Below are positions 2,595-47,615 of a stretch of DNA of 47,615 nucleotides, piece by piece. Origin of the DNA: a virus; IMG/VR virus record IMGVR_UViG_3300035703_000141, positions 1 to 47,615 of that record; one strand, 5' to 3'. The stretch's first letter is position 1, and each line of letters opens with the position of its first letter. Both the position numbers and the translations under genes were made by a program. The notes under the pieces are model-generated. The model was not told the origin of the DNA. It did no database searches and saw nothing but the letters and a program-made list of their open reading frames with translations.

Positions 2595-4778
2595 TTAAAT
2601 CTTGGAAGTGATGGTTGGGTCGGTGAGCGACGCCTGCAGTTTCACCGCCCTCAGTTTCAACCGTCCAGACGAAGGGGCGATGGAAATCTGTGCGCCATAT
2701 CCACGCTTATTGCCGATTCTACCACGCGCAGAAGCGTCTTCCCCTGCCGGCAGACGGCCACCGATAAGCTGGGAAAGATTCCCGACATACACCGTTTCAT
2801 CGGGGTTTTCCATCTCCACCAGGATGGTGGCGTTTGAGGACTCGGATTCCGAACTCTCAACGTGCAGCTCGTAGGTGGAGAACTTCTTCCGGCCAAGCTG
2901 ACCAAAGGCATATTGCCGGGTGGTGATTTCGGAATTTATGGGGTAAATCGAGGCAGCCACACCGGCAAAGAGGCTCAGGCGGTCATTCCCCGTGGAACGC
3001 TCGTCGATGATGTGGATGGAGCCCGACGAACTCACCGTGTAGAGCTTCGACAGCCCCCCGCTGTCCACGACGAGGAAGTTCTGGATTTCCCAGCCATTCT
3101 GACCAATGGTGTCCAGGCTCTCCCAGCCCTGATTGAGGAAGTTGTAAATCAGGATGGCGTTGTTCACCGTCGAACTGTCCAACGGAACAGCCAAGTAGTA
3201 CCTATTGTTGAAATAGGCCGCGACGCTGTTTCCGACGTAGTTACGGTTTATACGCTGGATTAAACTATTGATGGGCTCCGACAACGGAACCCCCGCACCA
3301 CGGAGGTTGTAGAGGTCGCCAAACTGGGCAGCATACACCCCATTGTCCGACAGGAACATCACCTGATTGCCGACCTGAAGGATGGAGCGACGAGCCACGC
3401 ACCCCACCTCCGTCGTAATCAGTTGGGTGGTCGTATCCGTCAACGCCCCGCCAACCCCACGAATGAGATGGATGGAGTTGCGGTTGAACACCAGAAGGTT
3501 GTCCTCTGCAAAGGGCTCGATGCCGACAACGTAATCAGCCACCCCCGCAGTAATGCGGTATTGGTTCTGGAGCTGGTCGAAGGTGTTGTAGTCGAGGATG
3601 TCGGAGGCGATGATTTCGTCCGTCCGGTTCCTAGAGGTACCCGGGTTCCCGCTGTTATGGGTGTAGGGCACCCACAGACGACGCTGGTGGTAGACGCCGA
3701 ACTCCGGGGAGGGCATATGGACGAACCCCCGGCCACTACTCACCTTCTTGGAGATGACGACCAAATTGGCCGCCATATCCCTCACCTGGGCGTAGAACTT
3801 GAAGCTGTTGAGCCCCGGCACCTCGCTCACCGTGTAAGCCACATCCCCCTCTTCCAGCTCGGAGGCTCCCCGGTCAATGACGTACACCTTATCCCCAACC
3901 GACAAGCCGTGGCTGGTGGCTGTGACAGTAACCACACCATCGGTAATGGTCGTATTCCCCGCTGCGTCGAAGTAGACCGGCTGGGTGTAAGTGCCATTTG
4001 CTACCACCGTAAAGGCAGGAGTGCCGGACAGGCTCCCGGTCCATTCCAGCGCGGCATAACCGCTAGGACGGAACAGCAGCACCTTGTCGAAGCATTGCAG
4101 CATCTCCACCCGGGTGCCGATAGTTACGCCAGACGGATAGGCGATGGACGTAGCCACACCCGTAGACACATTCACCGCCAGCACCTCCTTGTTGGTGGCG
4201 CGGAGGATGTAGCGGGTGTTCGTCGAAGATGGATCAGAGAAGATGCAGGACCCGTACACCCCGGTGGTCGCAGTCTCCGACAGGATGGGATTGCGGGCAT
4301 TCCCAGTCCCGCCGTAGGTCTCACTCCCCGTAGCCCCAGTAATGGTGTAGGTGAACGTCGTGTTCCCGGTCACCGTGATGAGCCGGTTGCCGTTGGGATC
4401 AACGGTCCCCGACAGCCCGTAGATGTTAACCAGCGTGTTGGAGCTAAACCCGTGGCTGGCCGAGGTGGTGATGGTGACAGTCGCTGAACTGCGGGTGGCC
4501 GACGCAATGGCGTAGGGCGTGCTGCCGTACAGCTTGATGACCGGAGGATCGGAGAGGATGAGCGCCTCCGTATTGGCCGTCAGGGTAGGTCCAAAGCTGT
4601 CCACGCCCTTCCGTACCTGCCACGCCCCATCAACGTCCATCCGCCCGTTCACAGACCCAGCCACATCGCCAGGCTGGAGTTGGTCGGGACGCAGACGGGT
4701 GTTCAGTCGGAGAAAGGAGACATCCCCCTCATCGCCAACCACCGTGTCAGTCCGACCATACTGTGAATAGCGGGGCAT
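2595..4778 (-). CDS. large tail nozzle/stabilisation-like structural protein
   Basis: A 727-residue, mostly beta-strand protein starting MPRYSQYGRTDTVVGDEGD. The early motif 'RLRPDQLQPGDVAGSVNGR', followed by repeated strand-turn units, two Ig-like inserts (~95-160 and ~265-310) and WD/propeller-like segments such as 'DNLLVFNRNSIHLIRG' and 'MFLSDNGVYAAQFGD', fits the beta-propeller nozzle or tail-stabilisation proteins of podoviruses (functional analogues of T7 gp12 or P22 gp10). Its stop and the ATG of the gene below are separated by a single base; its ATG (4778) overlaps the upstream stop as TAATG. Assignment rests on size, architecture and neighbours. Confidence 0.65.
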   Translation of the reverse strand: MPRYSQYGRTDTVVGDEGDVSFLRLNTRLRPDQLQPGDVAGSVNGRMDVDGAWQVRKGVDSFGPTLTANTEALILSDPPVIKLYGSTPYAIASATRSSATVTITTSASHGFSSNTLVNIYGLSGTVDPNGNRLITVTGNTTFTYTITGATGSETYGGTGNARNPILSETATTGVYGSCIFSDPSSTNTRYILRATNKEVLAVNVSTGVATSIAYPSGVTIGTRVEMLQCFDKVLLFRPSGYAALEWTGSLSGTPAFTVVANGTYTQPVYFDAAGNTTITDGVVTVTATSHGLSVGDKVYVIDRGASELEEGDVAYTVSEVPGLNSFKFYAQVRDMAANLVVISKKVSSGRGFVHMPSPEFGVYHQRRLWVPYTHNSGNPGTSRNRTDEIIASDILDYNTFDQLQNQYRITAGVADYVVGIEPFAEDNLLVFNRNSIHLIRGVGGALTDTTTQLITTEVGCVARRSILQVGNQVMFLSDNGVYAAQFGDLYNLRGAGVPLSEPINSLIQRINRNYVGNSVAAYFNNRYYLAVPLDSSTVNNAILIYNFLNQGWESLDTIGQNGWEIQNFLVVDSGGLSKLYTVSSSGSIHIIDERSTGNDRLSLFAGVAASIYPINSEITTRQYAFGQLGRKKFSTYELHVESSESESSNATILVEMENPDETVYVGNLSQLIGGRLPAGEDASARGRIGNKRGYGAQISIAPSSGRLKLRAVKLQASLTDPTITSKI

Positions 4779-6410: not shown

Positions 6411-6513
6411 TGTGGGTGGATAGTAACCGGGCCTCCTGCACCGCATCCAAGAGCCTATTGAGGAAGGGAATGGCCTTGGAGAGGGCTAGAATGAGGCCGA
6501 CTAGGCTGGTCAC
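6295..6513 (-). CDS. 72-aa membrane-associated protein, candidate inner-membrane spanin
   Basis: The ATG at 6513 overlaps the stop of the 132-aa gene (ATGA). The N-terminal ~22 residues (MTSLVGLILALSKAIPFLNR) are hydrophobic to amphipathic, followed by a helical charged stretch to residue ~45. The C-terminal ~27 residues overlap the lipoprotein gene in a different frame. Layout resembles Rz with an overlapping Rz1, but the protein is about half the usual Rz length and the coiled coil is short. It could instead be a small holin. Confidence 0.45.
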   Translation of the reverse strand: MTSLVGLILALSKAIPFLNRLLDAVQEARLLSTHNAIDQAIQNARNGPPVCPYGSCPLRVRHAEGEPAPPAS

Positions 6514-6908
6514 GTCAGGTAGGGGTCCGGGGCTAAAATGACCGCCGGATCAAGCCCGAGCTGGGCACACATCGCAATGACGGTCTGGTTATTGTTCCAG
6601 AACCACGCATAGTTGGTCCAGAGGAACTGCTGCTCGGCAGGCAGGCTAGCAATGAGGGTCATTAGATCGGGGAGCTTGCCAGCATCCAGCACGCGGGTGG
6701 TGATCGTGTCCTTGCTGACTCGGTAGGGCGCGGGAGGGGGAATAGGCTTCACCACCCACGCGCAGTTCTCCCACACGGGCGGCTGCTCGGTGGCCGGATC
6801 GTAGCTGGGCGGGGCGGTAATAACCCAGCCCTTGCGCTCCAGATTGGCGATGGCCGTCGGGTCGGTTTCGGCGCGGAGCGCGCAGTCTAGGGTGAGGTAA
6901 GTGGTCAC
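6510..6908 (-). CDS. 132-aa fibre-associated protein (copy 1)
   Basis: Starts MTTYLTLDCALRAETD. Its second half ('VLDAGKLPDLMTLIASLP', then 'WFWNNNQTVIAM', 'QLGLDPAVI') matches the general pattern of short proteins encoded after phage tail fibres (LD.GKL..V...I..LP...Q..W.....F.......I..L...LGL). It may be a fibre chaperone or a fibre-associated subunit. The second copy at 45371-45769 differs at 10 of 132 residues, with many additional synonymous changes, whereas the adjacent lectin genes are almost identical. This copy is followed by podovirus-like genes. Confidence 0.65.
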   Translation of the reverse strand: MTTYLTLDCALRAETDPTAIANLERKGWVITAPPSYDPATEQPPVWENCAWVVKPIPPPAPYRVSKDTITTRVLDAGKLPDLMTLIASLPAEQQFLWTNYAWFWNNNQTVIAMCAQLGLDPAVILAPDPYLT

Positions 6909-7621
6909 GAGCAGGCGATTTTGAAGGAGTAGGCGGCTGATTGCTCAAGGCGGCGGCGAAGCGATGAGGATTGCGCGGTCTCAAATGCGATAAGAAGTCC
7001 CATATCGCCGACAAATTGCAGCACATTGTCCCACGAAGAAGCTCCGACAGTCATCCGGACACTTCCTGATGTAACTCCAGATTGTCCAGAAACACTTGCG
7101 GTTTGACGCGAGCCTCCGTTCAGAAGATATTCTTGATCCCCACTCCCAACCGCCGCTGTTACGGAGTGTATGTTGAAGTTGTCGTTCCTAGTAATAAAAT
7201 TACTGACGGTCGCATTTGTAAAAAGCCCGAATCTACCACCCGAAGCAGAATCGTAATAAAGTTGATAGCGCCGTTGATTGGCAGCCGTGCCTCCGGTCGT
7301 GCCAGCAGATGCGACCAAGGTAGCATTATCAAAGGCGTTGGCGTTGGACCCGCTGCGTTTGTAGACAATGTAAATGGAATATGCTGTTCCGGTTACAAAC
7401 GTCGCATTGTAGAAGTCTCCGCCATCAAATCTAAGAATTGGATTCCCTCCTTGAATCGCCGTCTTGTAAGTTGCCCTTGAACCAGCGGTCGCTTGTGTCG
7501 CATCCCGCGCATTGCCAGAGATGTCTGACCAAGTTTGTACGGTGCTTCCGTCTGATGTGCCAGAGATGTAGCGCGTATCTAGAGCCAAACTAGCTCCGGC
7601 GGCCTTGTAGCTAAAATGTCT
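6856..7621. repeat. long direct repeat, left copy (pairs with 45717-46482)
   Basis: I find no difference between 6856-7621 and 45717-46482, an offset of 38,861 bases; translations in three frames are identical. On one side the 132-aa genes show ~87% identity; on the other a few mismatches, then 7638-7689 matches again before the fibres diverge. Confidence 0.9.
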
Positions 7622-7636
7622 ATGCCGCGACCTCAT
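6905..7636 (-). CDS. LamG/concanavalin-like lectin domain protein (copy 1)
   Basis: A 243-residue protein. After a basic N-terminus, 'LALDTRYISG', 'VQTWSDISGNARDATQ' and 'NPILRFDGGDF' give the opening of a LamG/concanavalin-A-like jelly roll (W.D.SGN..DATQ...P..RFDG). The closing strand region ends 'LRRRLEQSAAYSFKIACS', as in that family. In phages such domains bind glycans on the host surface. It sits directly after a tail fibre (TGATG-type overlap at 7636) and before the 132-aa protein. The copy at 45766-46497 differs in only two residues, S3A and H5Q. Confidence 0.75.
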   Translation of the reverse strand: MRSRHRHFSYKAAGASLALDTRYISGTSDGSTVQTWSDISGNARDATQATAGSRATYKTAIQGGNPILRFDGGDFYNATFVTGTAYSIYIVYKRSGSNANAFDNATLVASAGTTGGTAANQRRYQLYYDSASGGRFGLFTNATVSNFITRNDNFNIHSVTAAVGSGDQEYLLNGGSRQTASVSGQSGVTSGSVRMTVGASSWDNVLQFVGDMGLLIAFETAQSSSLRRRLEQSAAYSFKIACS

Positions 7637-10044
7637 CAGCTCGACGTGTAGGAGATTTCGACGCCAAGGAGGCGGGCGTCCACGGCGAGCGTGTCGCCGC
7701 CCGCGTCCGCGTCGCGGTAGATTTGGAACTGCACGGCTTTGTTTGCGCCGGGCGTCCCTCCGATGGTGATCGCGGAAGTCGCGCCGGAGATCATCATATC
7801 GTTCGCGGCGAGCAGCGTATCCGTCACGGTCTGCGCCGTGCCAGTCGCGGTATCGAGCGCGTCATCGTCGGAGTAGGCAAGCCCCTGCAAGCCCCAGACC
7901 ACGGCGCCGGTGCCGGTCGTTGCGGTCCAGTAAAAGCGCGCGGTCACCTGCCCGGCGTTGTAATTCGTCGGCATCACGACGAGCGCCTGCGCGAACTCAT
8001 CGGTTGCAGCGTCGAAGAGCAGCTGGTCAAAGTTCTGGAGATTGGTCGTCGTCTGCGTCGAGTCCACGCCGACGCCGGTCGTCGTGCGCGGTATCCATTG
8101 TGAAGCCGCAATCCAGAGGTTCGTCGATCCGCCGCCACCTCCGCTCGCCGCGGCCCACGTCGGAGCCGCTCCCGCGCCCTGCGTCTTGAGGAAGTGCCCA
8201 GAGGTTCCAGCAGGCAACCGCGCCCACGAAGTCGAGTCGCGGTAAAGGATGTCGCCGAAGGTCGCGCTCGCGATGGTCAGCTGGTCGAACGTCGGCCGGG
8301 CGTGGACGTGATCGACGCGCGCCGCGGTGACCGAAACGCCCGCGGTGGCCGAGGCTGCGAGCGCCTCGGGCGCCGTGGAGTCGAACAGCTGCCGGTTGCG
8401 CCACGCGGTGATTGAGGCGTTGTACGCCAAAAAGTCATTATTGGCGACGGCGGTGATTGAGACATCGTGGAGCTCGTCGAGCTCGAGCCCATTCTGCACG
8501 TCGACGAAGATGATGCCATCCGCAACGCCCGCTTTTTTCACTACGTAACCGATTCGGACGCCGTGATTCGGCGCGGTCGGTCTTACATTGGTCAAGGCGC
8601 CGGGCGTGGTCGCGGAGAGGTAAAGCGTGTCGCCCGCGTTAAAGGCGTTGGTGTCGATGCCGCGCAGAACGCCCTGCGTGATTATTACGCCGCTGTCGTT
8701 GTCGCCGATTGTCTGCGAGCAGACTCCGAGGGTCTGCGCGGAATTTGGATCGCTGGTCGCTAGCGCCAGCGAAGCCTTGAGGCGCGTGCCGCTGGAGCCG
8801 TCCGCCTTGACCACTTGGCCCTTAGTGAACGCGCTGCCGCTCTGGTTGTAGACCAGCGCGTGCAGATCCATCCCCAGCATCGTCGATGTCGAGGCATTAA
8901 ACCCGAGCTCAAGCGTGGACTCGGTCGCGCTCCAGACAGCCTTTGCCGTCGTGACGGCTACGGTGCTCGAGGTATTGACCGCGAGGTAATCGACCTGCGT
9001 GATCGTGTTCGTCGCGCCGAAGACCGAATCGACCGGGAAGTCGATTGGGTCGCTGCCGCCCACCTCGTGCGTCGAGGCGTGCGCGGTCGGCGTGCGCGAG
9101 TCTGACAGGCGCGCGTCGTCTGCCTGCACAGCCTTCAGCGCGGCGCTCTCGCCTGAGGTCGCGAAGGTCACCACGCCCGAGGCCGTCGTCGTCGCGGCCT
9201 GCTTGATGTTCGCGAAGGCAGCCGTGACGGACGCGACGTCAGTCAGGTTGTTCGCGCCGAGCATATCGCCGCCGCCGGGGATCGATTCCCAGCTGGGCGT
9301 CGTGCCATCCGTCTTGAGGAACTTGCCCGCGTTGCCAGTCTGGGAAGGCAGCGAATCACCGCCGCCGCCACCACCGCCGCCCGCACCGCGCGCCGCGATC
9401 ACGGCCCACTTCGCGCCCTCGCGCCCGATGTTCTTCCGGCCGGGCGTGTCGTTCGTGTCCTCCAGCGCGAGGTAGGTGGAGCCGTACCACGAGAACAGGT
9501 CGCCCCGCTGCGCGACCATACCCTCGCGCCATTGCCCGCGGTACGAGTCGATGAGCGTCGGCGCCGCGGCGAACTCCTGCTTAGGCAGCGCCGCGTTGAC
9601 CGCGTGCTGGATCTCGATGACGAGTCCGCGCTCGAGCTTCTCGATGCGCTCGGCGGCGGCGCCAGTCAGCGCGCCGAGGATGCGCGACTCGATCTGTTCG
9701 GCCGTGACGCCGATCTGTTTCTCGGCCTCGGTGAACTGCTTCGACGCCAGCGCGACGATCTCCGCGCGAACGGCCTCAAGCTTCGTCTGCGATTCGGAGA
9801 GCGCCGCCCGGCAGCGCGCCTCGAGGTCTTCGTTGTACTTTGCGTAGGCGTCGCTGACGAGGCCCGGCACCGCATCGACCAGCCGCGCGTCGAGTTCCTT
9901 GCGGATCTCCGGCACCGTCTTGCCGATGCGCTCGAGCAACTCGTCGAGCGTCTTGTCGTGCTCAACAAGCAGCTGCGCGAACTCCTCCGCGCGCTGGCCC
10001 AACTGCTCGTTGCTGGAGATGATCGCGTCGAGAACGCTGTGCAT
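7636..10044 (-). CDS. tail fibre protein (802 aa)
   Basis: Residues 1-~150 are a long charged helical/coiled-coil region (MHSVLDAIISSNEQLGQRAE...). Residues ~165-225 carry a compact domain ('YRGQWREGMVAQRGDLFSWY') like small carbohydrate-binding domains in fibres, then a run of eight Gly. Next come fibre-type segments ('GNAGKFLKTDGTTPSW', 'DDARLSDSRTPTAHAS') and a C-terminal ~160-residue beta domain starting 'NLWIAASQWIPRTT' and ending '[15 protein letters not shown]'. The same C-terminal domain closes the fibre at the right edge. It follows the portal gene as TGACAATG. Confidence 0.85.
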   Translation of the reverse strand: MHSVLDAIISSNEQLGQRAEEFAQLLVEHDKTLDELLERIGKTVPEIRKELDARLVDAVPGLVSDAYAKYNEDLEARCRAALSESQTKLEAVRAEIVALASKQFTEAEKQIGVTAEQIESRILGALTGAAAERIEKLERGLVIEIQHAVNAALPKQEFAAAPTLIDSYRGQWREGMVAQRGDLFSWYGSTYLALEDTNDTPGRKNIGREGAKWAVIAARGAGGGGGGGGDSLPSQTGNAGKFLKTDGTTPSWESIPGGGDMLGANNLTDVASVTAAFANIKQAATTTASGVVTFATSGESAALKAVQADDARLSDSRTPTAHASTHEVGGSDPIDFPVDSVFGATNTITQVDYLAVNTSSTVAVTTAKAVWSATESTLELGFNASTSTMLGMDLHALVYNQSGSAFTKGQVVKADGSSGTRLKASLALATSDPNSAQTLGVCSQTIGDNDSGVIITQGVLRGIDTNAFNAGDTLYLSATTPGALTNVRPTAPNHGVRIGYVVKKAGVADGIIFVDVQNGLELDELHDVSITAVANNDFLAYNASITAWRNRQLFDSTAPEALAASATAGVSVTAARVDHVHARPTFDQLTIASATFGDILYRDSTSWARLPAGTSGHFLKTQGAGAAPTWAAASGGGGGSTNLWIAASQWIPRTTTGVGVDSTQTTTNLQNFDQLLFDAATDEFAQALVVMPTNYNAGQVTARFYWTATTGTGAVVWGLQGLAYSDDDALDTATGTAQTVTDTLLAANDMMISGATSAITIGGTPGANKAVQFQIYRDADAGGDTLAVDARLLGVEISYTSS

Positions 10045-17740: not shown

Positions 17741-17950
17741 CTAGCGAGCCTGTGTCGAGTTGCTGTCAAGCCCAGAAGCTACGCGGACGATTGCCTCGAC
17801 GCGCCGAGGCTCCCTGCCCTCGATACGGGCGATCTCGTCCTCGAGGGACTGGCAGGCGATCTCGTACTCGTTGAGGATCGGCAGGAGGCGGCGCTGCACT
17901 TGCGTGCGAGCCTTGAACAGTTGGCTGATCCGGTCTGGTTTGGTTTTCAT
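17741..17950 (-). CDS. coiled-coil hypothetical protein (69 aa)
   Basis: The ATG at 17950 overlaps the DnaB stop (ATGA). The protein (MKTKPDRISQLFKARTQVQR...) is one long charged helix with heptad-like Leu/Ile ('LLPILNEYEIACQSLEDEIA'), so it probably forms a coiled coil. Translational coupling to DnaB suggests a replication-related or early function. No family recognised. Confidence 0.55.
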   Translation of the reverse strand: MKTKPDRISQLFKARTQVQRRLLPILNEYEIACQSLEDEIARIEGREPRRVEAIVRVASGLDSNSTQAR

Positions 17951-19335
17951 CGGTTGGGTTGTTTGGTTGGTAGAGCGAATGTCGCCGTCGCCCGGCGGAA
18001 GTAGAGCCCGACGCTGCCCGTGCCGTCGTTGCGCCCCTTGGCTTGGATCGCGCTCACGTAGAAGGTCGGCAGATCCTCGGAGCCCGAGGTGACGCTCTGC
18101 GCGGCGCCCGTAATCGGATCTTCGCCCGGCCGGTGCAGGAGCACGATCTTATCCGCGTCCTGCTCGATATCGCCTGACTCGCGGAGGTCGTGGATGCGAG
18201 GCACGCGCTCGTCTCGCTCGGAGTCGCGGTTAAGCTGCGCCAAGACCATCACGACGCAATCGTTGCGGAGCGCGAACTGCTTGAGCGCCCGCGAGACGCG
18301 GCCGACGCTCTGCGCCCGGTTCTCGCCGCGGGATGGCGTCGCGTCTGGCATAAGCCCGATGTAGTCCACGACGACGAGCCGCGGTGGCGTCTGGCGCGCC
18401 CGCAGCACCTCGGCGCGCGATTGCATCGTTGCGAGGCTGACGTTGCCCGCGGCGACGACCTCGAGCGGCGCCTTGTACACGCGCTGCGACGCTTCGCGGA
18501 ACGCCTCAACGTCCTTCGGATGCGTGCGCGAACTCAGCGAGCGCAGCGAAATGCCCGAGATCGTTTGCGCGAAGTTAAGCGCGAGCGTCGCCCCGATGAC
18601 CTCGAGCGAGGCAAAAAGGACTTGCTGCTCCTGCGCTAGCGCAACGTGGAGCGCCACTTGCCGCGCCAGCGAGGACTTGCCGACGCTCGGCCGGGCCGCG
18701 ACAACGACCATCTCGCCGCGCTGCATCGTGCCGAAGACGCGATCCATCTCTCCAAAGCCCCAGCCCAGCGCGCCCTCGCGGATGCCCTCGTGCTTGCCGG
18801 ACACGCGCGCCGTGATCTCCTCGTCGGCCTTCGCGAGCGACTCAGCCCACGACTCGTTGCGCTGCTGGGCCTCGATGGCGAGGATGCGCGCCCCAGCTTC
18901 GCGGACGAGCTCCTCGGCAGGCTCAGACCCGGCCTCGCGGATGTTGGTCGTGATCGCTCCGGCCTCGCGCATCAGCTGGCGCAGGATCTCGCAGTGCCGC
19001 ACGCGCGTCGCGAAGAACTTCGCCCGCACGGTGGTCGGGGTTGCGTGCGCCATCGCCACGACGTTGTCGTGCGTGACCTCCAGCAGAGCCTGCGAGGCTT
19101 CGCGCTCGTTCTTCGCGATCTTGAGCTTGATCCAGACCGTCGTCTCATCGACTGGCTCGCCCGCGAGGAGCATCGCCGTGATGATGCGCCAGACAGTGCC
19201 CGCCATCGGGTCAACGAAGGAGTCCGGCGTGATGTCGAAGCTCATCGCCATCCCGACGACGCCCGCCGGGTCGATGAACGCGCAGCCGACGAGCGCGCGC
19301 TCGGCGTCTTGGTCAAAAGTGGGGTCGGGTTTCAC
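17947..19335 (-). CDS. dnaB: replicative DNA helicase, DnaB family
   Basis: GTG start at 19335, 462 residues, overlapping the initiator stop (GTGA). The N-terminal domain ('FDQDAERALVGCAFIDP') is followed by a linker and the RecA-like motor with Walker A 'VAARPSVGKSSLAR' near residue 215, Walker B 'RLVVVDYIGLM' near residue 320, and 'VMVLAQLNRDSERD' and 'RIHDLRESGDIEQDADKIVL' as H3/H4 motifs. It is the ring helicase that unwinds DNA ahead of the host polymerase; no phage polymerase is visible. Context next to a loader supports the call. Confidence 0.93.
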   Translation of the reverse strand: MKPDPTFDQDAERALVGCAFIDPAGVVGMAMSFDITPDSFVDPMAGTVWRIITAMLLAGEPVDETTVWIKLKIAKNEREASQALLEVTHDNVVAMAHATPTTVRAKFFATRVRHCEILRQLMREAGAITTNIREAGSEPAEELVREAGARILAIEAQQRNESWAESLAKADEEITARVSGKHEGIREGALGWGFGEMDRVFGTMQRGEMVVVAARPSVGKSSLARQVALHVALAQEQQVLFASLEVIGATLALNFAQTISGISLRSLSSRTHPKDVEAFREASQRVYKAPLEVVAAGNVSLATMQSRAEVLRARQTPPRLVVVDYIGLMPDATPSRGENRAQSVGRVSRALKQFALRNDCVVMVLAQLNRDSERDERVPRIHDLRESGDIEQDADKIVLLHRPGEDPITGAAQSVTSGSEDLPTFYVSAIQAKGRNDGTGSVGLYFRRATATFALPTKQPNR

Positions 19336-20168
19336 GTGATGCCGAATTTCTCTTTGATGCCGGGGATGCCGACGAGCAGCGACTCCGCGAAGGAATTGTC
19401 GAACTGCGGCTCAGGCGGCGGCTCGGCGCGGTTCAGATTGGCGACGGCCTGCTTCGTCCAGTCGTCGACCGGCGCGGCTCCGAGGCTGGCCCAATGCTTC
19501 GCCAGCGCGGGAGCGGTGAGCGCGGCGCCGGAGAACTTGCGCGAGTAACGCTCCGCGCGGCGCTTGACCTCCTGCGGGGTCACGTCCGGCGAGGCGGCGC
19601 GGATGTCGCGGAGGGCGGCGTTTAGGGCGCCGCGGCCGGGCTTGGTGAGGCTCTTCGCCTCCACGCCGGTGGCCTCGCAGAGTGCCTCGAAGATAAGGTC
19701 ACGCGGCCTTGCCTGCGCGACGGGCTCGCCCGGCGCAATTATGTTCCCTTCCCCTTCCCTTCCCTTCCCTTCCTTATGGCACGCGTGGTTCACGCGTGGC
19801 TCACGCGTAGCCGTCGCGTCAACTTGTTCGTGCTCCGTTGGTTCCGGTAGCTGACTCGCGCGCTCCTTGTTGTTGATGATCTGGTGCCTTTTCCAACTAG
19901 GGATGGCACCTAGCAACGCGTCTTTCACGCGATACTTAACGAGGAATCCACGCGTGGCTAACGCGTCGAGCACGCGTGAAAAGTCGCAGTCATCGTAGGG
20001 CAGGATCTGCGCCTTTAAACGCCGCGGCTCCCATCGAAACCGGCCCTCCTTGTCTGCGGCGCACCAAAGGCCGATGAAGGCAATGCGTACTGGCGCGCGA
20101 AGCTCGTTTTCTAAGTCGTGCAGGCCGTCGTGCATAAAGAACTCCGGCTTAATGGTTCGTATTCTCAT
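19332..20168 (-). CDS. replication initiation/helicase loader protein
   Basis: ATG 20168 gives 278 residues starting MRIRTIKPEFFMHDGLHDLE, a typical opening of phage replisome organisers with an N-terminal winged-helix ('VRIAFIGLWCAADKEGRFRW'). The middle has a Lys/Glu/Gly tract (about residues 131-143) encoded by a GGGAA repeat. The C-terminal half is the probable DnaB-contacting domain. Such proteins bind origin iterons that often lie inside their own gene; here two ACGCGT triplets lie in this gene. The start follows a structured leader. Confidence 0.8.
   Translation of the reverse strand: MRIRTIKPEFFMHDGLHDLENELRAPVRIAFIGLWCAADKEGRFRWEPRRLKAQILPYDDCDFSRVLDALATRGFLVKYRVKDALLGAIPSWKRHQIINNKERASQLPEPTEHEQVDATATREPRVNHACHKEGKGREGEGNIIAPGEPVAQARPRDLIFEALCEATGVEAKSLTKPGRGALNAALRDIRAASPDVTPQEVKRRAERYSRKFSGAALTAPALAKHWASLGAAPVDDWTKQAVANLNRAEPPPEPQFDNSFAESLLVGIPGIKEKFGIT
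19746..19769 (-). repeat. GGGAA repeat, G-quadruplex motif
   Basis: On the minus strand five runs of three or four G separated by AA lie inside the initiator gene (19746-48, 51-54, 57-59, 62-64, 67-69). It fits the G-quadruplex pattern with 2-base loops and encodes Lys-Glu-Gly-rich residues. Confidence 0.85.
19781..19808. repeat. ACGCGT iteron triplet 1
   Basis: The palindrome ACGCGT occurs at 19781, 19792 and 19803, spaced exactly 11 bases, in contexts close to CACGCGTGG. Since 11 is not a multiple of 3, codon use does not explain the spacing. Confidence 0.7.
19950..19977. repeat. ACGCGT iteron triplet 2
   Basis: ACGCGT at 19950, 19961 and 19972, again exactly 11 bases apart, with a further single site at 19916. 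Together with triplet 1 this marks a probable initiator-binding region. Confidence 0.7.
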
Positions 20169-20183
20169 AAACAAAACGCCGCA

Positions 20184-20231
20184 CGCCGACTCGGGTAGAA
20201 ATTGGAGCAATGACACTCCTCCGAGCCGACG
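20184..20231 (-). promoter_or_regulatory. structured leader of the replication initiator
   Basis: On the minus strand CGTCGGCTCGG (20231-20221) pairs with CCGAGTCGGCG (20194-20184) in an 11-bp stem with two G-T pairs. The loop holds a smaller stem GGAG/CTCC. The initiator ATG is 16 bases further. It may control initiator expression. The rest of the gap 20232-20300 shows nothing clear. Confidence 0.45.
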
Positions 20232-45339: not shown

Positions 45340-45370
45340 AGTCGTTGTATTTGTTGCAGTTGTCTAAAGG

Positions 45371-45769
45371 TTAGGTCAGGTACGGATCAGGCGCGAGGAT
45401 GACGGCTGGGTCGAGGCCGAGCTGGGCACACATCGCAATGATGGTTTGGTTGTTGTTCCAGAACCACGCATAGTTGGTCCAGAGGAACTGCTGCTCGGCA
45501 GGCAGGCCCGCAATCAGGCTCATCAGGTCGGGCAGCTTTCCGGCGTCCAGCACGCGGCTGGTTATGGTGTCTTTGCTGACGCGGTAGGGCTCGGGAGGCG
45601 GTACGGGCTTCACCACCCAGCCGCAGTTCTCCCAGACCGGCGGCTGCTCGGTCGCCGGGTCGTAGCTCGGCGGAACGGTGACGACCCAGCCCTTGCGCTC
45701 TAGATTGGAGATGGCGGTCGGGTCGGTTTCGGCGCGGAGCGCGCAGTCTAGGGTGAGGTAAGTGGTCAC
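45371..45769 (-). CDS. 132-aa fibre-associated protein (copy 2)
   Basis: Same family as 6510-6908 (122 of 132 residues equal). It starts inside the lectin gene's end (ATGA-type overlap) and precedes the 444-aa fibre. Its codons follow the GC-richer style of the siphophage region, whereas copy 1 follows the style of the left segment, so each copy fits the genes downstream of it. Probably a fibre chaperone or subunit. Confidence 0.65.
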   Translation of the reverse strand: MTTYLTLDCALRAETDPTAISNLERKGWVVTVPPSYDPATEQPPVWENCGWVVKPVPPPEPYRVSKDTITSRVLDAGKLPDLMSLIAGLPAEQQFLWTNYAWFWNNNQTIIAMCAQLGLDPAVILAPDPYLT

Positions 45770-46482
45770 GAGCAGGCGATTTTGAAGGAGTAGGCGGCTG
45801 ATTGCTCAAGGCGGCGGCGAAGCGATGAGGATTGCGCGGTCTCAAATGCGATAAGAAGTCCCATATCGCCGACAAATTGCAGCACATTGTCCCACGAAGA
45901 AGCTCCGACAGTCATCCGGACACTTCCTGATGTAACTCCAGATTGTCCAGAAACACTTGCGGTTTGACGCGAGCCTCCGTTCAGAAGATATTCTTGATCC
46001 CCACTCCCAACCGCCGCTGTTACGGAGTGTATGTTGAAGTTGTCGTTCCTAGTAATAAAATTACTGACGGTCGCATTTGTAAAAAGCCCGAATCTACCAC
46101 CCGAAGCAGAATCGTAATAAAGTTGATAGCGCCGTTGATTGGCAGCCGTGCCTCCGGTCGTGCCAGCAGATGCGACCAAGGTAGCATTATCAAAGGCGTT
46201 GGCGTTGGACCCGCTGCGTTTGTAGACAATGTAAATGGAATATGCTGTTCCGGTTACAAACGTCGCATTGTAGAAGTCTCCGCCATCAAATCTAAGAATT
46301 GGATTCCCTCCTTGAATCGCCGTCTTGTAAGTTGCCCTTGAACCAGCGGTCGCTTGTGTCGCATCCCGCGCATTGCCAGAGATGTCTGACCAAGTTTGTA
46401 CGGTGCTTCCGTCTGATGTGCCAGAGATGTAGCGCGTATCTAGAGCCAAACTAGCTCCGGCGGCCTTGTAGCTAAAATGTCT
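45717..46482. repeat. long direct repeat, right copy (pairs with 6856-7621)
   Basis: Right copy of the 766-base repeat that covers most of the lectin gene. The flanks change affinity across it: a podovirus-like fibre upstream and siphophage genes downstream, the reverse of the left copy. Confidence 0.9.
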
Positions 46483-46497
46483 CTGCCTTGCCCTCAT
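45766..46497 (-). CDS. LamG/concanavalin-like lectin domain protein (copy 2)
   Basis: A 243-residue protein identical to 6905-7636 except at residues 3 and 5 (MRARQRHF here, MRSRHRHF there). It follows the collagen-like fibre with TAATG overlap. Jelly-roll motifs as in copy 1 ('TWSDISGNARDATQ', 'NPILRFDGGDF'). Likely displayed with the fibre to bind host glycans. Confidence 0.75.
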   Translation of the reverse strand: MRARQRHFSYKAAGASLALDTRYISGTSDGSTVQTWSDISGNARDATQATAGSRATYKTAIQGGNPILRFDGGDFYNATFVTGTAYSIYIVYKRSGSNANAFDNATLVASAGTTGGTAANQRRYQLYYDSASGGRFGLFTNATVSNFITRNDNFNIHSVTAAVGSGDQEYLLNGGSRQTASVSGQSGVTSGSVRMTVGASSWDNVLQFVGDMGLLIAFETAQSSSLRRRLEQSAAYSFKIACS

Positions 46498-47615
46498 TAG
46501 CTCGACGTGTAGGAGATTTCGACGCCAAGGAGGCGGGCGTCCACGGCGAGGGTGTCGCCAGCATCCGTAGCCTTACGGCTAAGTTCGTAGACAATGGGGT
46601 TTCCATTGGCCGCCGTACCCGCCAAAGTGATGGCAGATGTGGCAGGGGAGATATCCACGTCATTCGCCGCCGTCAGGGTGTCGGTTGCCGTCTGTGCCGT
46701 GCCGGTAGCTTGGTCGATGGCATCGTCATTGGCGTAGGCTCGCCCGGAGAGCTGCCACACCACATCACCAGAGCCGGATGCCGCCGTCCAATGGAACTTA
46801 GATGTCACCGTTCCGGCATTCCAGTTGGAGGGCATAACAACCAACGCCTGCGCGTACTCGATGGCCGCCGCATCAAACTCCAGCACGTCGTAGTTCACCT
46901 TGTTGGTGGCCGCTTCTAGGGAGTTGACGCCACACCCCGAAGTGGTGCGGGGAATCCAAGCAGACGCCGGAATCCATACATTAGTGGCGCCACCAGCACC
47001 CGTAGCTGCCGGGCCGGTAGGGCCCGTTGGGCCAGTGGGACCTGTTGGACCCGTAGGCCCGGTAGGACCAGTGACGCTTGCTCCCGTAGGGCCAGTAGGT
47101 CCGGTGGGGCCGGTAGCTCCAGCGGGACCCGTGGGGCCGGTGGGGCCAGTGATGCCCTGTGCCCCTTGCGGACCCGTGGGGCCGGTGGGACCCGTGGCTC
47201 CCGCTGCACCAGTCGGGCCTGTAGGCCCCGTGGGACCAGCCGCACCCGTAGCCCCAGCAGGGCCAGTGGGACCAGTTGGGCCTGTAACGCCAGCCGCTCC
47301 GGTGGGACCAGTGGGTCCGGTAGCTCCAGCAGGGCCGGTAGGACCGGTGACTCCCGCAGCACCCGTAGGGCCGGTAGGTCCGGTCGGTCCCGTAGCCCCG
47401 GAAGCCCCCGTAGGACCCGTAGGTCCGGTGACACCCTGGTAGGTGATTTGGCAGGCCGTCAGGATGATGGACGGGGTGGCCGGACGTACAGGACCCGTGG
47501 CAGACGGAAGTTGCTCGATGGACAGGTTGGTGCTAGTCCCGTTCCAGTAGACTTCAATGTAGTCGTTGGCCGCGAAGGTGGCGACGTAGTTAACCGTCGC
47601 TAGCGCGTGCCCATC
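46497..47615 (-). CDS. collagen-like tail fibre, N-terminus beyond window edge
   Basis: The frame is open from the window edge to TAA at 46497-46499, 372 codons. Visible parts: a beta domain '[20 protein letters not shown]' with '[13 protein letters not shown]', a collagen-like tract of about 140 residues (Gly-Pro-Thr, Gly-Ala-Thr and similar triplets, ~47010-47437), then a C-terminal domain starting '[14 protein letters not shown]' and ending '[15 protein letters not shown]'. That end domain is homologous to the end of the 802-aa fibre. A GTG within the frame at 46898 is not the start. A plus-strand frame here is a shadow. Confidence 0.85.
47010..47437 (-). repeat. collagen-like Gly-X-Y triplet tract
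   Basis: About 140 codons of Gly-X-Thr/Ala/Pro triplets, mostly Gly-Pro-Thr, encoded with many near-identical 9-base units. Trimeric collagen-like stalks are known in phage fibres. Such tracts expand and contract by slippage or recombination. Confidence 0.9.

Follow-up and report, generated by a model that had tools for sequence, protein, structure and literature searches.

The window, by which we mean the whole stretch of DNA analysed here, is a virus record of 47,615 bases from IMG/VR. It carries a replication initiator gene on the minus strand, with a helicase gene directly behind it. Repeats of the palindromic hexamer ACGCGT and a long purine tract are found inside the coding sequence of the initiator. 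The features are as follows.

19332–20168, minus strand: replication initiator gene, 278 aa from the ATG at 20168 (phrog_16167 match, start alignment, AlphaFold model)
17947–19335, minus strand: DnaB-like replicative helicase gene (Pfam DnaB_C 8e-52, DnaB 2e-8; phrog_19)
19950–19977, no strand assigned: iteron array 1, ACGCGT at 19950, 19961 and 19972, in the codons of residues 64–73
19916–19932, no strand assigned: continuation of array 1, ACGCGT at 19916 and the near-copy ACGCGA at 19927, 11 bp apart, in the predicted wing codons
19781–19819, no strand assigned: iteron array 2, ACGCGT at 19781, 19792 and 19803 and TCGCGT at 19814, in linker codons (ATREPRVNHA)
19744–19775, minus strand (the coding strand): 32-nt polypurine tract AAGGAAGGGAAGGGAAGGGAAGGGGAAGGGAA, the proposed opening and helicase-entry element
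19746–19769, minus strand: five G-runs with AA loops (GGG, GGG, GGG, GGGG, GGG) within the polypurine tract, fitting the G-quadruplex pattern

The initiator and the sites in its gene

The open frame of the initiator extends to a GTG at 20216 (ORF 19332–20216, minus strand). The ATG at 20168 is the likely start, because nearly all homologues begin with M(A)R.R..KP (MRIRTIKPEFF starts in the alignment). A profile search matches residues 17–170 with phrog_16167, 'replication initiation protein' (E 4.9e-44), and by this sequence profile the window's initiator belongs to the phrog_16167 group. For initiators of this group an adjoining helicase or helicase-loader gene is expected; here the helicase gene is the next one downstream, and the two genes overlap by 4 bases at the initiator stop. 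Recombination genes of the RecT-like and exonuclease VIII-like types are also found close to the initiator gene. The original prediction likened the locus to that of lambda-like phages, whose initiators bind iterons within their own gene. The placement of the repeats bears out this likeness, while the protein itself has no detectable homology to lambda O (no Pfam O-family match at E<=0.1). A RepA_N domain is not matched in Pfam either, and no relatives of solved structure are found by sequence.

An AlphaFold model of the initiator, built on a 40-row alignment, shows a predicted winged-helix N-domain, a disordered linker and a helical C-part. The N-domain is modelled with confidence (pLDDT >90 for most of residues 1–110) and comprises helices 14–23, 27–37, 48–55 and 63–72 followed by strands 77–81 and 84–88. 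The predicted order of these elements is winged-helix-like, with helix 63–72 preceding the β hairpin. A fold search with the model retrieves phage replication proteins and 'replisome organizers' with E values down to 3e-13. Against the PDB, winged-helix regulators and the Rep–DNA complex 5kbj are weakly matched (E>=0.05; 0.34 for 5kbj).

All six ACGCGT sites of the original prediction (19781, 19792, 19803, 19950, 19961 and 19972) are found at their positions and in exact 11-base steps, and a seventh site in the gene, absent from its list, lies at 19916. Copies with one mismatch continue the 11-base step in each array, TCGCGT at 19814 in array 2 and ACGCGA at 19927 in array 1. By coordinates, the sites of array 1 fall on the codons of S64-R65-V66, D68-A69-L70 and T72-R73. 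In the model, these codons would encode the predicted recognition helix 63–72. The homologues L004–L006, L008, L010 and L011 retain the site at 19916.

The whole window holds 9 ACGCGT, of which 7 are inside the initiator gene and cluster within a 197-bp stretch. This total is lower than expected, namely 24 by dinucleotide shuffles and 15 by a Markov model. Synonymous-codon shuffles of the initiator gene contain 0.86 ACGCGT on average and 6 at most, and none of 20,000 reaches 7; pairs at 11 bp have a mean of 0.05, and four or more pairs appear in 1 of 20,000 shuffles. Avoidance of ACGCGT is strong in the window and several relatives, including G010, where all 6 sites are inside the initiator gene. 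As a general part of the system, genome-wide avoidance was rejected, being absent in the Vibrio phage VvAW1 (25 sites).

Two observations concern other parts of the window. A direct duplicate of 1,495 bp with 88.6% identity (6508–7998 and 45369–46859) has its copies 38.86 kb apart and stops short of the contig end; it could represent duplicated virion genes, or the contig could extend beyond a single genome length and continue into a variant. A collagen-like region of 9-bp tandem repeats occupies 46900–47442 at the right contig end.

Conservation and distribution of the arrays

Homologues were gathered from IMG/VR, GTDB genomes and named phages and reduced to 147 genes at 85% identity. Identical hexamers were counted by lag, with pure purine or pyrimidine hexamers excluded, and compared with synonymous shuffles. 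At lag 11 there are 763 identical hexamers versus 56.8±8.2 in the shuffles (z=86) and at lag 22 there are 537 versus 53 (z=50), to be read with the caution that homologues are non-independent samples and all z-scores given here overstate the evidence. Lags such as 9 and 13 show no hexamer excess in the 147 genes. Another 49 genes, which had no part in forming the hypothesis, give z=23 at lag 11, and their ACGCGT-array members (7/7) all have both arrays and a purine tract.

ACGCGT occurs at least twice in 90 of the 147 genes. ACGCGT arrays are found in two clades, and other clades have different sequences at the same 10–11-bp step, namely AGCACC/GCAAGCAC, GGAAGCA, CACGTG, TCGCGA and AACCGTT. 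The arrays in homologues keep their positions and steps. Homologues that keep the protein and lose the 11-base spacing had been named as evidence against the origin; in fact, the window's clade keeps the spacing, and distant clades alter the sequence while keeping 10–11 bp. Among homologues, the spacings of array 2 are 11 (132 times), 10 (22) and 22 (5). A triple array with a 10-bp step also exists, is rarer (15 stretches in all IMG/VR versus at least 120 for the 11-bp step) and lies mostly within the same initiator family; we therefore describe the step as one helical turn, mostly 11 bp.

The arrays were also set against synonymous drift in L007 and L012, whose initiators are ~70% identical to that of the window. 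At degenerate sites encoding the same residue, L007 has codons identical to those of the window in 92% of cases in the arrays and 100% in the purine tract versus 52% in the rest of the gene; for L012 the values are 88%, 100% and 51%. In this comparison, which the original prediction had suggested, the arrays are conserved well beyond the drift of the surrounding codons.

It could be argued that the DNA repeats merely reflect repeated amino acids in a low-complexity linker, which does contain the motif TRxxRVxxA and G/K/E-rich stretches. However, a step of 11 does not divide into whole codons, the encoded amino acids differ from repeat to repeat, and the signal is lost on synonymous shuffling. 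The first site of array 2 occurs in all three reading frames among homologues, and the conserved-looking TRxxRVxxA is simply ACGCGT translated in three frames. Furthermore, 34 genes were chosen by the array-1 protein motif alone, without regard to their DNA. All three array-1 ACGCGT are intact in 27 of them and at least two in 34/34, and the Leu of D-A-L is encoded by TTR (TTA/TTG) in every one versus 27% elsewhere. This Leu codon choice and the Gly and Arg codon bias of the purine tract described below are DNA-level features. Synonymous shuffles and codon usage thus rule out repeated amino acids as the source of the arrays, an explanation that we regard as exceedingly improbable.

In the RARN clade, the initiator genes L018, L020 and L023 carry 7–8-bp repeats, CTGATTCC, which code IPDSLIPDS and are followed by a C-rich stretch. 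A lag-7 hexamer excess is linked to these repeats (z=19 and z=33), and a different origin signal is possible there.

A scan of IMG/VR for ACGCGT-N5-ACGCGT-N5-ACGCGT, carried out regardless of protein, returned 100 readable arrays among the matches listed. Among these matches, the window's initiator family accounts for 90 arrays and initiator or primosomal genes of other families account for 4, which gives 94 of 100 in initiator genes. The four arrays of other families sit in linkers after the N-domain, in phrog_9474 (L329, L350 and L378) and DUF1376 (L362). To be noted, the phrog_9474 initiator of L378 also has a DnaA_N-like C-domain. The other 6 arrays among the matches listed are unassigned, three of them in one ORF type (L357, L367 and L402, with the 11-bp step). 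These three and the triple array at 479–506 of L327 fall outside recognised initiator genes; the L327 array is a near-perfect 11-bp tandem in A+T-rich intergenic, non-coding DNA. Judged from this distribution, the array signal is tied to replication initiation; ACGCGT is shared by sequence-unrelated initiators, and the initiator is a candidate reader of it.

The arrays might form an origin whose ACGCGT sites are recognised not by the initiator but by a protein of the host or by a different DNA-binding protein of the phage. The triple arrays in linkers of phrog_9474 and of the DUF1376/primosomal gene fit this idea, and so does the finding that the two ACGCGT clades of the present family differ in their recognition-helix residues. 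On the other hand, the iteron type tracks the initiator protein tree, with 28 changes versus 56 when labels are shuffled. In addition, I3, T5, E9, W46, I98 and N99 (278-aa numbering) are the same in the two ACGCGT clades but not in the RARN clade, and the hosts of these phages and prophages span several phyla (Pseudomonadota, Acidobacteriota, Planctomycetota and Armatimonadota). We consider a reader other than the initiator unlikely.

Repressor and centromere sites, too, typically have repeats spaced by one turn, and the arrays could accordingly be an operator or silencer, or a partition site, in place of an origin. Two genomes contain three further 11-bp ACGCGT pairs each, far from the initiator, at 6961/6972, 20084/20095 and 25522/25533 in VvAW1 (L224) and at 4216/4227, 17109/17120 and 20227/20238 in G014; the chance expectation is about 0.01 such pairs per genome. 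These distant pairs, which would suit an operator or partition function, are possibly secondary initiator-binding sites. Against such a function, the arrays are fixed inside initiator genes (the 94 of 100 among the matches listed), a constant purine tract lies alongside, and no parA/parB-type gene is found among the neighbours scanned, a subset of ORFs. We judge this explanation highly unlikely.

The purine tract and genome-level signals

The polypurine tract at 19744–19775 is the sole purine run of at least 18 nt in the window, both strands included, and its codons are identical in L004, L007 and L012. Across the family the tract starts a median of 18 bp past the last ACGCGT of array 2. Strong purine tracts are found in 77 of 82 ACGCGT-type genes. 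In the 147 genes, the coding strand has 107 strong purine tracts versus 0 strong pyrimidine tracts, and 52 strong purine tracts are expected after synonymous shuffling. This score is partly due to amino-acid composition, and we therefore rely on codon choice. Inside [GKRE] runs, Gly is GGR (GGA/GGG) in 357/363 cases versus 1079/2496 outside (98% versus 43%, Fisher p 2e-107), and Arg is AGR (AGA/AGG) in 129/143 versus 609/3241 (90% versus 19%, Fisher p 2e-72).

The original prediction placed a G-quadruplex beside two iteron arrays in an in-gene origin. Homologues strongly support the in-gene origin with its two helically phased arrays. The quadruplex fares differently: the five G-runs with AA loops are present in the window, but the G3+ pattern is found in just 43 of the 107 strong tracts and several family tracts are AAAAGG repeats. 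A loose G2+ pattern fits 105/107. As a conserved element the G-quadruplex is unsupported, and on the evidence of the sequences the conserved feature is the purine asymmetry of the coding strand, not the G4 pattern.

The tract may nevertheless prime or open the origin, either by folding into a G-quadruplex or by forming a co-transcriptional R-loop. The G-runs of the window would allow the first. For the second, the purine strand is always the coding strand (the 107 versus 0 tracts), and R-loops are favoured by a G/A-rich transcript such as this strand would give. The scarcity of the G3+ pattern and the AAAAGG tracts argue against this explanation, and we place it on the unlikely side; for the opening step, an R-loop that arises when the G/A-rich coding strand is transcribed is a serious alternative.

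An A+T-rich melting region beside the iterons was sought and rejected (AT excess at the tract 0.045 across 72 loci). The detrended cumulative GC skew of the window has its minimum 3.3 kb from the initiator gene, which agrees with the original prediction but supports it weakly. In 6 of nine genomes the minimum is no farther away than 15% of the half-genome distance, in the other 3 it is distant, and GC skew was set aside as an independent map of the origin.

A proposed origin and its relation to known systems

The sites, in helical phase, and the adjoining purine tract are present in the initiator gene and conserved at the DNA level, and this arrangement is seen again in more than 100 related phage genes. 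We propose, with a probability of about 0.8, that they constitute a phage theta-replication origin inside its own initiator gene, with iterons one turn apart bound by the initiator and the purine tract serving in opening or helicase entry. By analogy with lambda and the iteron plasmids, the initiator would be the binder, and the tract would be opened and receive the helicase. The predicted winged-helix N-domain would bind ACGCGT iterons one helical turn (11 bp) apart, and bound initiators would stack on one face of the DNA along arrays 1 and 2. Such a stack would wrap or bend the intervening DNA and so destabilise the adjoining strand-asymmetric tract, which would be the loading site for the helicase, the product of the next gene.

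A further, joint proposal is tentative, and on balance we lean away from it. Array 1 may itself encode the predicted recognition helix and wing, which would lock origin and specificity together and let them change only jointly; and at the same time the one-turn ACGCGT array may be a portable origin module shared by sequence-unrelated initiator families.

The proposed origin is predicted from sequence alone for a large and little-studied set of phages and prophages, and it offers experimental targets down to single nucleotides. A G/A strand-asymmetric element in place of the usual A+T-rich opener is relevant to origin opening in G+C-rich genomes. The natural variants (ACGCGT, CACGTG, GGAAGCA, AGCACC and TCGCGA at 10–11 bp) are suited to studying the co-change of initiators and iterons.

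The window's gene belongs with the phrog_16167, phrog_1408 and phrog_2149 replication initiation proteins. In the open-access literature, subscription journals being outside the search, we found no description of an origin or iterons in this group. In the RepA_N initiators of pTZ2162 and of the mobile element PLE of V. cholerae, a winged-helix N-domain acts on iterons (PMC7145576). The N-domain modelled here has its elements in a winged-helix-like order and is weakly matched by the Rep–DNA complex 5kbj; the PLE iterons are in a non-coding region and have a different repeat length. In iteron plasmids of the P1, RK2 and R6K type, the initiator sites are directly repeated in helical phase (PMC5043065), as in the window. 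Their iterons adjoin DnaA sites and A+T-rich regions and are typically located away from the initiator gene, whereas the arrays of the window are part of its coding sequence, with no A+T-rich block detected beside them.

Close parallels in layout are found with lambda, whose initiator gene O holds its own iterons in the middle; beyond them come a tract in which one strand is almost entirely purine and then a helicase or helicase-loader gene (PMC5043065, PMC7466680). The window likewise has repeated sites within the initiator coding sequence, conserved at the DNA level, then an adjoining strand-asymmetric purine tract and then the helicase gene. Iterons together with a strand-asymmetric element inside the initiator gene are lambda's principle and already known. 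The lambda iterons are four 19-bp sequences of inverted symmetry bound by O dimers, whereas the window has 11-bp steps and a 6-bp palindromic core, ACGCGT; the opened region of lambda is almost all purines on one strand and A+T-rich (PMC5043065), whereas the tract of the window is G/A and not A+T-rich. Unlike lambda, the window has two arrays, one of them in the codons of the predicted winged helix, and an initiator without detected O homology. The differences from lambda lie in the initiator family, in a step of 11 bp around a short palindromic core, in the doubled array with its part in the predicted recognition-helix codons, and in the G/A tract.
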